Shown: positions 47,127 through 52,328 of the stretch, one piece after another
Layout of the letters: each line of letters begins with the position of its first letter
Numbering within the stretch: the first letter of the stretch is position 1
NCBI GenBank assembly: GCA_003697085.1
Contig: RFFU01000084.1
Location: 1-64,000 of the forward strand
DNA: 64,000 bases
Reading direction: 5' to 3'
DNA from: Candidatus Hydrogenedentota bacterium
GTDB lineage: Bacteria > UBA8481 > J006
Position numbers and translations under genes: made by a program
Notes under the pieces: model-generated
Databases searched by the model: none
Told to the model about the DNA's origin: nothing
Seen by the model: the letters and a program-made list of their open reading frames with translations, nothing else

Positions 47127-48707
<1,581 letters not shown>

Positions 48708-48962
48708 TCAATTTTTTGCCCCATTTTCTTCGAAGCAGAATTACTGGAATACCGCCATCCGAAAAGGGATGAGAGAAACGGATTGAGATGGAATATTCGC
48801 TGTGACGTCTCCGGAAAATATCCGGTCCGGGAGGCGGAAAAACAGGGAGCGAACGGAAAAAATGCGGATTAGAACATACAAAAACATCCCCCTCTCCCGA
48901 AGGCTATTGAAAATGCAGGAGTTACAGAGCGCTTGCTCGAAAAATTTTTTTGAAAAAAATGT

Positions 48963-48990
48963 TTGACAATGGTGGGAGAGCGTGCATAAT
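48963..48990 (+). promoter_or_regulatory. Strong sigma70-type promoter of the small-RNA candidate
   Basis: A perfect TTGACA (48963-48968), a 16-base spacer and CATAAT (48985-48990). It is the best promoter match I see in the window. Transcription would begin at about 48997. Confidence 0.75.
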
Positions 48991-48996
48991 TCTTCC

Positions 48997-49077
48997 TGTA
49001 CGTACACGCCCGGCGCAATCGCGTGGCAACACCTGCCCCCCCTCAGGTGCCCCATTCGCCGGGCGTTATATTTTTTT
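48997..49077 (+). ncRNA. Candidate ~80-nt structured small RNA or attenuated leader
   Basis: CGCCCGGCG (49007-49015) pairs perfectly with CGCCGGGCG (49057-49065), enclosing an inner hairpin CACCTG/CAGGTG (49030-49035/49044-49049) whose loop is seven C and a T. The outer stem is followed by TTATA and seven T (49071-49077), an intrinsic terminator. No reading frame fits inside. It resembles no riboswitch or housekeeping RNA I can recall (not SRP RNA by its loop). The C-rich loop could pair with G-rich ribosome binding sites. It might also be an attenuated leader of the HNH gene 268 bases on. Confidence 0.6.
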
Positions 49078-49344
49078 AAGGAATTTGTTTTTAGGGAAGG
49101 GGGGACAAACCCGCGCAATAATAAGCCGTAACATTTTGCTCTTCCGTTCGAAAAAAGGTTATTTTTGGAAAAAAGAGAAGTGTGATTGATCATCGAATCA
49201 TTGTTCGGCGTGAGAAAAATCGATTCAGTGAGACCGATCGAATATCGAGGAGGGAATTCCTCCGAAAAAAGGGCAGGAAGGAAGCAGAGCAAGGGGAGAA
49301 ATTCTTCGGTTGCGGCGAGAAAAGCGGAGAATTATCATTCCCAT

Positions 49345-49941
49345 ATGCACACGCTCGTTCTCAATCGAAACTTCTATGCAATCCATCTTGTTGATTGGAA
49401 GAAGGCCGTGATGCTTCTTTACACGGATCGTGCTTCGGTCATCGATGAGGAGTACAGAGCGTATGATTTTACCGGTTGGCGGGAGTTGTCACGGACGATG
49501 CGCAAACATCCGTCGGGTTTCGTACACACTCCCACTTTTCGGATTGCGGTGCCGGAAGTCATCGCCTTGAAGTATTACGATAAACTTCCGCCGATGCGGA
49601 TCAAGTTCACGCGCCGCAATGTCTACGAGCATTATCGTTACCGATGTTGCTATTGCGGAAAGAAATTTTCGACTCAGGAACTCAATCTTGACCATGTGAT
49701 TCCGAGAAGTCGAGGGGGAAAGTCAAACTGGGAGAATGTTGTAACAGCGTGTATCCGGTGCAATTCTCGCAAAGCGAATATGCTTCCAGAGGAAGCGGGG
49801 ATGCGGTTGAAGATCACGCCGTCGCAGCCACGTTGGCGCGGACCGACCACGCTTTTGTTGCGACCGGGGGTCAAAGTCAAAGCCAGTTGGCAGAAATTCG
49901 TGGATCTCGTCTACTGGGACGGCGAATTAGAGCGAGAGTAA
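49345..49941 (+). CDS. HNH endonuclease domain protein
   Basis: A 198-residue nuclease-fold protein. The N-terminal MHTLVLNRNFYAIHLVDWKK is the usual opening of this stand-alone HNH family, so ATG 49345 is preferred; the frame extends to 49186 with a Lys/Arg-rich stretch of no family likeness. The HNH/zinc domain covers ~90-150: CCYCGKKF (Cys101 or 102, Cys104), ELNLDHVIPRSRGGKSNWEN (His117, Asn131) and CIRCNSRKAN (Cys136, Cys139). It would cut or nick nucleic acid using one metal ion. It is followed after 61 bases by a JAMM gene on the same strand. No phage or restriction genes are nearby. Confidence 0.88.
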   Translation: MHTLVLNRNFYAIHLVDWKKAVMLLYTDRASVIDEEYRAYDFTGWRELSRTMRKHPSGFVHTPTFRIAVPEVIALKYYDKLPPMRIKFTRRNVYEHYRYRCCYCGKKFSTQELNLDHVIPRSRGGKSNWENVVTACIRCNSRKANMLPEEAGMRLKITPSQPRWRGPTTLLLRPGVKVKASWQKFVDLVYWDGELERE

Positions 49942-50002
49942 TCCGTTCGATTCCGACGGCGGTAAGTGATGACGGGGAAGAGATGAGAAAGGGCGGGTAG
50001 AG

Positions 50003-50389
50003 ATGATCCTGAGATCCGAGATCGGGTATTCCCTCTTGGAGTATTCCTTGAAGGAGGCGCCGCGGGAGGCTGTGGCGCTTTTGTGGGGGCACGGTGAGAC
50101 GATCACAGCCGTACGGATTTTGACCAATATCTCAAAGGAAGAGGGAGTATTTGAGCTGGACGAGGAGGAAGTGGAGGGCGCGGTTCGGGAATATCAGAAC
50201 TTGACCTTGTTGGGTTTTTTTCACTCTCATCCGACGGATATTCCGGCTCCCTCCGTGCAGGACATCGACGGCGCGGAAGGAACCCGGATTCCCTTTCATG
50301 TGATTCTTTCCCTGAAGCCTCGGCCGTGTTTCCGTTGTTGGCGGATCTTCGGGGGACAGGTTTATCCCGAACGGGTGGATTGGGAATAA
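50003..50389 (+). CDS. JAMM/MPN-domain metalloprotease-like protein
   Basis: A 128-residue protein that is essentially one JAB1/MPN domain. The catalytic pattern is complete: Glu22 in PREAVALLWG, then GFFHSHPTDIPAPSVQDID with His74, His76, Ser84 and Asp87 (HxHP-x7-S-x2-D). Bacterial relatives remove ubiquitin-like or sulfur-carrier tails, or cut C-terminal peptides. No ThiS/MoaD-like or E1-like partner is present nearby. The start is ATG 50003, in GTAGAGATG. Two Cys near the end (CFRCW) may add a metal or redox site. Confidence 0.85.
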   Translation: MILRSEIGYSLLEYSLKEAPREAVALLWGHGETITAVRILTNISKEEGVFELDEEEVEGAVREYQNLTLLGFFHSHPTDIPAPSVQDIDGAEGTRIPFHVILSLKPRPCFRCWRIFGGQVYPERVDWE

Positions 50390-50416: not shown

Positions 50417-50507
50417 AAGAAGAAATCTTTCCTTTCGGAATTGCGGGAAAGTTGTTTGTCGAAGAGGGGGAATTAGAGTAATTTAGCACCTTGGGGTGTC
50501 GAGAATC

Positions 50508-52328
50508 ATGAAACTGGTCGAAAATGCGGTGAGAGAAGGGCGTTTGCCGAAATGCACCTGGAGGCTCGTTGGGGTCTTGGCGGCGCTTGTGTCGGTTCTT
50601 CCCGTGTCCGCGCCGCTTCGCGCTCTTCAGATCACCTTCCCTTTGGAGGCCCCCAACGGCGAAGTGATCCAAAAACCGGTGACTTTAAAGAGTCGCACTT
50701 TGAAGGAATATTTCGACAAATTTCAAGTCACGTACAAGAGCGATGTCTACCGGTATGGTACCTATGGCGATCGTTCAAGGGCTTTTCGTCCGGACAAGAC
50801 TTATTATCAAGAGTTGTTGGGAATCACGGCGGGGAAGAAACTCCGGAACGATATCCATTACGAAGTCAAGGGAACGCTGCGATATGTCACGGACCCCATC
50901 GTCACTCTCCGCGATGACGTTCACTTCACCTCCCTGGTGGGACTTGTGGAAAAGGAAGATTTCTGGAGGATGCGGTTCGGAGACCTTTACCCTCGACTCT
51001 CCCGGTATTCCTTCAACCGATTTGCCGAGGGGTGGCAAGGAAGTTTGCAACGCGATTTAGGAAGTTTCGCAAAGGTTCGACTCCTGGGGGTCACGGCCCG
51101 AACGGAACGAGAACGGGAAGCGGCGTCGTTGTTGCGAACAGCGTTGGCCGGCGGAGCGGATTTGGCGAGCCAGACACTGGTCCGCGGGCGTCCGCGTTGG
51201 TTCGTGGGTTATCGTTACAGCCATGCGGCGGATAAACTGAATTCTGTGGATAATCATGGGAGCCTCGTGAATGCCCACTCCTCCGTCAGTTCCGCTGTTT
51301 ACGCTTTTCGTCTGAACGGGGGCTGGACGATCACGGGGGAGAATGCGTGGAGTGGGGGCGAACGTGATCGAAAGACAGCATGGGTTCACAAGCGGGGAAA
51401 GGCGTGGTTGACGGACGTAACATGGTTGAAGCCACGCGAATCGAAGCCGTACAGAGGGTTACATCGTCTTCTTCCGTTCGCTCTGCAGGCGAGCTGGGAG
51501 CGCGTTTCGCCGGATTTTCTTACACTACTCGGCGTGGCCGCAACCGATCAGCAGAAATACAGCATTCGAACGGCTCACCGGTGGAATTCTTTTCTGGAGT
51601 GGAGTTTAAGTTACCTCCGGTTAGAGGACAATGTCGAGGAGCAAAAAAGCGTGACGAACATCAGCCGCACAACGACGGCGGGACTGAAGATGCGTCCGTT
51701 TCGCCTCCTCAACGACAAGTATTCGACTTGGATCTCGCGTCTTCCGGATTCCGTTAAGGATATCCGATTGAAGGCCGATTTCCGGTATAACTTCCGTGAT
51801 GCGACCGACGCCACGGTGAACCAGAAGGTCGAGGACTATATCTACTCGTTGTTCTACAGAAATTGGGGGGCGAATTTCCGTCTGGACTACCAGTTCCAGA
51901 TCACGGATGATGACGTCAACGCAAACAACGAGCGGCGTCTTCAAAATTACGGCATTCTTGTCAACAGGCCGTGGACCTGGAAACGCTTCAATCTTCGTCT
52001 CTTCCCCCGGTTCATGTACCGCGTCAGTCGAGACCATTTCCGTTTCACGGGAACCTCGACGGTTCTCCAGACCACGAACTTCGGCATCGGGGCGAATTGG
52101 GAGGAACTGACGGGAGACGTAAACTATCTGATTTTGGACTCGAATCGTACCCCTGCCGGCAACGACTACCTTCAAAACAAGATCACCTTTAACCTTACGT
52201 ATCGGCCTTATCTCTTTCCCGGATTCCAATCCACGTTCACCTACTCCTATTTGGACGACAACGAGGAAGACGCAAGTCGGTCGTATCGGCAGACGGAGAC
52301 ACGCTTGTCGATACGCTATACGTTTTAG
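50508..52328 (+). CDS. Predicted outer-membrane beta-barrel protein, family unknown
   Basis: About 606 residues from ATG 50508 (GTG 50496 also possible). A basic start and hydrophobic stretch (LVGVLAALVSVLPVSAPLRA) form a signal peptide. The mature part is rich in alternating polar/aromatic strands (RWNSFLEWSLSYLRLED, FNLRLFPRFMYRVSRDHFRF, KITFNLTYRPYLFPGF), and the protein ends in RYTF. A terminal Phe after alternating residues is the recognition signal of the BAM complex. Strand density suggests a barrel of 16 or more strands. No TonB box or plug is evident. It sits 18 bases before a lipoprotein gene with a strong ribosome binding site, so the two probably work together at the outer membrane. 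Confidence 0.8.
   Translation: MKLVENAVREGRLPKCTWRLVGVLAALVSVLPVSAPLRALQITFPLEAPNGEVIQKPVTLKSRTLKEYFDKFQVTYKSDVYRYGTYGDRSRAFRPDKTYYQELLGITAGKKLRNDIHYEVKGTLRYVTDPIVTLRDDVHFTSLVGLVEKEDFWRMRFGDLYPRLSRYSFNRFAEGWQGSLQRDLGSFAKVRLLGVTARTEREREAASLLRTALAGGADLASQTLVRGRPRWFVGYRYSHAADKLNSVDNHGSLVNAHSSVSSAVYAFRLNGGWTITGENAWSGGERDRKTAWVHKRGKAWLTDVTWLKPRESKPYRGLHRLLPFALQASWERVSPDFLTLLGVAATDQQKYSIRTAHRWNSFLEWSLSYLRLEDNVEEQKSVTNISRTTTAGLKMRPFRLLNDKYSTWISRLPDSVKDIRLKADFRYNFRDATDATVNQKVEDYIYSLFYRNWGANFRLDYQFQITDDDVNANNERRLQNYGILVNRPWTWKRFNLRLFPRFMYRVSRDHFRFTGTSTVLQTTNFGIGANWEELTGDVNYLILDSNRTPAGNDYLQNKITFNLTYRPYLFPGFQSTFTYSYLDDNEEDASRSYRQTETRLSIRYTF

Follow-up and report, generated by a model that had tools for sequence, protein, structure and literature searches.

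A predicted small RNA with a C-rich loop in its terminator hairpin in Candidatus Hydrogenedentota

Introduction

The described systems closest to the locus studied here are bacterial small RNAs with C-rich loops. Mycobacterial B11 RNA binds G-tracks beside ribosome sites through a C-rich loop in its terminator (PMC12395582; PMC10470900), and 6C RNA displays two C-rich stem-loops (PMC4046766). RepG of Helicobacter pylori pairs with the G-repeat of an mRNA leader through a C/U-rich loop in its terminator hairpin (PMC8295292). For the staphylococcal regulators, one published account (PMC2837412) describes pairing of C-rich loops with G-rich ribosome sites.

Here, we present the analysis of a candidate small RNA gene found in a stretch of 64,000 nt (hereafter "the window") from a genome of Candidatus Hydrogenedentota. 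To our knowledge, no riboregulators have been reported from this phylum, which is represented in our sample by two genomes, the source genome and G001, the latter belonging to the same order and a different family. A preliminary description, made by eye from the window, had proposed a small RNA with a strong promoter, nested stems, a loop of seven C residues and a built-in terminator. The locus was analyzed by folding, comparison with G001, covariance model and homology searches, and a search for possible target sites.

Results

Promoter, fold and terminator

The elements of the predicted gene are the following:

48963..48968, + strand: −35 element TTGACA, 6/6 match, read from the sequence
48985..48990, + strand: −10 element CATAAT, 5/6 match, spacer of 16 nt, read from the sequence
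48997..49077, + strand: predicted small RNA of ~80 nt, 5′ end placed from the −10 element
49006..49014, + strand: 5′ arm of the outer stem, ACGCCCGGC, 9 perfect pairs with 49058-49066
49025..49051, + strand: inner hairpin, consisting of GGC, a 3-nt bulge, ACCTG, the loop, CAGGT and GCC
49036..49043, + strand: apical loop CCCCCCCT, proposed pairing site, 8/8 unchanged in G001
49058..49077, + strand: intrinsic terminator, formed by the 3′ arm of the outer stem GCCGGGCGT (49058-49066), TATA and T7

Upon re-reading of the sequence, promoter, nested stems, C7 loop and T7 tail were all located where the preliminary description had placed them. The conserved block within the predicted RNA begins with ACGCCC at 49006, and TATATTTTTTT follows directly 3′ of the nested stems, with the T7 run at 49071-49077. 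Written as perfect pairs, the inner stem is CACCTG/CAGGTG (6 pairs); in the preferred fold, the sixth of these pairs is replaced by a GGC/GCC stem and a 3-nt bulge below ACCUG/CAGGU. The minimum free energy of the RNA is −31.8 kcal/mol (z −4.6), a value reached by none of 200 shuffled sequences.

Both the promoter and the hairpin are rare in the window. On its two strands, TTGACA-N16-CATAAT is the only promoter match with at least 11 of 12 positions, shuffled sequences giving 0.08 per 64 kb. The 64 kb contain just one more hairpin like that of the RNA, with nine or more paired bases and a tail of at least six T residues (0.08 such hairpins in shuffles). A strong promoter with such a hairpin within 100 bases was reproduced in none of 60 dinucleotide-preserving shuffles, and the combination is thus beyond chance expectation.

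A homologue in G001 and its conservation pattern

The RNA is present as a single copy in the source genome and likewise in G001, where it was detected at C46:12546-12622 (equivalent to L038:5047-5122) both by BLAST (E 1.9e-10) and by the model search. Sequence identity between the two copies amounts to 78% in the RNA block and falls to 48% in the 70 bases upstream, the value also obtained with shuffled sequences, and to 43% downstream; the GC content of the locus is 41% in G001 versus 56% in the window. Conservation follows the predicted structure: 33 of 34 paired columns and all eight columns of the apical loop are unchanged, compared to 8 of 21 in the internal loop and bulge (Fisher p 1.6e-6). 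The sole substitution in a stem turns a C-G into a U-G pair and so keeps the pairing. No pair is altered on both sides, two sequences being too few to demonstrate covariation. Over a block of 21 nt, ACCTGCCCCCCCTCAGGTGCC (49031-49051), the genomes do not differ at all, and both copies fold alike, with z-scores of −4.6 in the window and −3.3 in G001.

The promoter in G001 is weaker (TTGATG-N17-TATAAA, 9/12 matches) and lies about 8 nt before the RNA. Since a terminator at L038:4949-4972 separates the RNA from the preceding gene in G001, the RNA there would need a promoter of its own. A coding function was rejected: reading frames across the block, among them a 79-aa frame at 48950-49189 that spans the RNA in the window, are broken by indels and stops in G001, and the block is therefore regarded as non-coding. 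The preliminary description had named missing conservation of the stems in relatives among the observations that would speak against its candidate; in G001 the stems are conserved together with the structure, and this lends support to the proposed small RNA with a strong promoter and terminator.

Search for further copies and for known families

A scan of the window against Rfam with cmscan at gathering thresholds yielded no match beyond two tRNAs, and a scan of 501 nt around each copy with E-values up to 10 assigned to the RNA only noise far below gathering. The earlier statement that no known RNA family fits is hence borne out for both copies. Some 420 other genomes yielded no further copy; these comprised 386 genomes, to which both the model and the 21-base core were applied, and 40 genomes of another phylum, the one that harbours the nearest homologue of the neighbouring HNH protein. 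The RNA is absent from the phages and viral contigs searched, and plasmids gave one trivial match of 30 nt; with a single copy per genome and no real match in these collections, a repeat or mobile element was dismissed. Weak model matches in G223, G224 and G089 turned out to be plain terminators lacking a C-loop, and a match with two mismatches in G372 sits within a transposase-like gene.

From these features of the two loci we conclude that the window contains a predicted small RNA that carries a promoter and a terminator of its own and belongs to a family not represented in Rfam.

Neighbouring genes

Downstream of the RNA, the following features were annotated:

49310..49344, + strand: weak promoter-like sequence TTGCGG-N17-TATCAT, immediately before the ATG of the HNH gene, with no ribosome site between
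49345..49941, + strand: gene for a 198-aa protein of the HNH endonuclease family; its counterpart, 63% identical, also follows the RNA in G001
50003..50389, + strand: JAB/MPN-family gene, 128 aa, next to the HNH gene in G001 too (35% identity)

The other flank differs between the genomes, being formed by a divergent purA gene in the window and by a PHP-type gene in G001, a label given to the latter from its sequence by eye and without a profile match. The distance between RNA and HNH gene is 267 nt in the window versus approximately 75 nt in G001, and the intervening stretch does not align. In G001, the HNH gene is likewise preceded by a promoter-like pair, TTGCGT-N17-TAACAT, without a ribosome site. 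These pairs match the consensus at 8 of 12 (window) and 7 of 12 (G001) positions; if real, they would direct an HNH mRNA that lacks a leader and is distinct from the small RNA, for which their sequences are suggestive only.

The HNH protein belongs to a widespread family (44/116 genomes), mostly present as a single copy, in which an LVLN motif near the N-terminus is invariant. The HNH core is similar to those of IscB, Cas9 and PtuB, and the N-terminal half of the protein had no match in searches of Pfam, NCBIfam and PDB. For the JAB protein, a search of the genome-contig collection returned one match, which was judged to be due to chance. HNH and JAB genes (49345-50389) are adjacent in both genomes despite the JAB identity of only 35%, and the pair may represent a functional unit. 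They are followed at 50496-52328 by a frame of 610 aa without a Pfam match, which by eye looks like an outer-membrane beta-barrel, and by a lipoprotein-like frame of 149 aa, also without a match.

Two further observations concern the immediate surroundings of the RNA. Upstream of purA, a strong intrinsic terminator (9 bp and a T-run) is located on the minus strand at 48571-48593. Between 48594 and 49000 there is no evident minus-strand gene feeding it, and a transcript of that strand which has escaped recognition may end here. Just behind the terminator of the RNA, at 49096-49107, there is a GGGGGG run (AAGGGGGGAC) without counterpart in G001; if transcription continued past the terminator, this run could base-pair with the C7 loop.

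Search for target sites

In the source genome, AGGGGGG is located 3-11 nt before an ATG in 62 cases, compared to 44 in the reversed control, a slight excess. The same pattern in G001 is found only inside the RNA gene itself. The shorter AGGGGG precedes an ATG in G001 seven times versus ten times in the control and so shows no excess; just two of these sites stand before frames of appreciable size. One of the two falls within a longer frame, and for the protein encoded behind the other no homologue was detected in the source genome. The search for the G-run pattern in both genomes thus delivered no conserved target candidate. No 16S rRNA was detected in the source assembly.

Discussion

Free-standing gene or leader

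The locus presents what is generally expected of a trans-acting sRNA with intrinsic termination, namely a predicted promoter and terminator, the absence of a conserved reading frame, and a conserved structure with an apparently exposed pairing region. Our preferred reading is that of a free-standing gene for a trans-acting small RNA, the C-loop of which most likely pairs with G-runs of target mRNAs, and we regard this as probable. Of this proposal, the sequence, the fold and the conservation of stems and loop in G001, ahead of the same genes, are demonstrated; that the RNA is transcribed, that it is independent of the HNH gene and that it acts by pairing is inferred.

The main rival is a cis-acting leader of the HNH-JAB mRNA, in which the terminator would serve as an attenuator, switched off by a ligand, a protein or an RNA bound at the C-loop. 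Such a leader agrees with the gene order, since in each genome the RNA precedes HNH and JAB and is encoded on their strand while the other flank differs, and with the lack of a strong promoter between RNA and HNH gene. Of the features of riboswitches and attenuators, however, the locus combines the same downstream operon in both genomes with a spacing that differs and with one strong fold, and no obvious antiterminator accompanies this fold. Furthermore, the RNA is absent from all 28 loci around HNH homologues that were inspected in other phyla. As the distance to the HNH gene differs, the region between cannot be aligned, and a weak promoter-like site without a ribosome site lies right before the HNH ATG in both genomes, a free-standing small RNA is favoured, and we consider the leader rather unlikely. 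A closer tie to the neighbouring gene, with the RNA devoted to the HNH nuclease as its partner or regulator and both forming an unknown RNA-nuclease system peculiar to the phylum, is very improbable. A guide RNA of the IscB/TnpB type was rejected, for the neighbour shares only the HNH core with IscB and Cas9, and neither end of the RNA offers a variable segment of the length required for a guide.

Other explanations question the mRNA partner or the function as such. The conserved C7U loop might be bound by a C-binding protein or by another RNA, so that the transcript would act as a protein-binding or sponge RNA instead of contacting mRNAs. The loop is unchanged despite the lower GC content of G001, a genome with almost no G-runs before ATG codons, and ribosome sites may therefore not be the partner. 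On the other hand, no partner protein is indicated, and known C-loop RNAs of similar shape pair with G-runs (PMC12395582, PMC8295292), which leaves the protein-binding or sponge RNA improbable. Finally, the locus could be a mere terminator or chance hairpin beside a chance promoter, devoid of any RNA function. This explanation can draw on the strong intrinsic terminators of other phyla that score weakly with the RNA model, but no plus-strand gene enters from the left, purA being divergent and the RNA in G001 being preceded by a terminator. In addition, the two families have the C7 loop and the inner stem in identical form, although termination does not require them. Already disfavoured on these grounds, it is the least credible of the explanations considered.

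Proposed mechanism and significance

For the free-standing small RNA, RNA polymerase would start at about position 48997 from the strong sigma-70-type promoter, and transcription would stop at 49077, at the intrinsic terminator that the gene itself carries. A single long hairpin is predicted for the entire transcript: its GC-rich outer stem doubles as terminator, the internal loop is variable, and a short inner stem would present the eight-base loop CCCCCCCU. This loop most likely pairs with G-runs near ribosome sites of target mRNAs, which would lower their translation or stability. Such repression of mRNAs with G-runs is proposed as the most likely mode of action by analogy, because the arrangement of a C-loop within a terminator is that of B11/6C and RepG; the search for G-run sites added no support to this analogy. 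Pairing with GGAGG ribosome sites, as suggested in the preliminary description, is plausible by precedent, but a C7 loop would prefer G-runs, and these are rare before the ATG codons of G001 and not above control there. Targets may instead use short G-runs or sites elsewhere in the mRNAs, or the RNA may have another partner.

The predicted RNA would represent a small-RNA family outside Rfam from a phylum with only two genomes in the sample. It also provides a signature by which metagenomes and transcriptomes can be searched, that is, ACCUG-CCCCCCCU-CAGGU within the ACGCCCGG terminator stem; ACCTGCCCCCCCTCAGGT can serve as search pattern for the RNA alongside the covariance model.

Comparison with known C-loop RNAs

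C-rich loops are common to the new RNA and to staphylococcal regulators such as RNAIII and others, which carry UCCC-type motifs in other architectures; no match to the new RNA exists among them. With RepG, for which the Rfam scans detected no sequence relation, the new RNA would share the use of a C/U-rich terminator-hairpin loop as pairing site. RepG has two stem-loops, whereas the new RNA forms one composite hairpin with a C7U loop and a 3-nt bulge.

The 6C RNA (Rfam RF01066) differs by its two C-rich stem-loops from the single C-loop that is nested in one long hairpin in both copies described here. In addition, none of the Rfam models matches the new RNA at E-values up to 10, and it occurs in another phylum and beside other neighbours. 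On account of its single C-loop and the lack of a model match, it does not belong to the 6C family, and the resemblance noted in the preliminary description is at most a functional one. What it has in common with 6C and B11 is the plan of a short, independently transcribed RNA (transcription being predicted in the present case) with an exposed run of at least six C residues and an intrinsic terminator. The placement of a C-run in the terminator loop, as in 6C/B11 and RepG, would thus recur, perhaps independently, far from Actinobacteria and Helicobacter.
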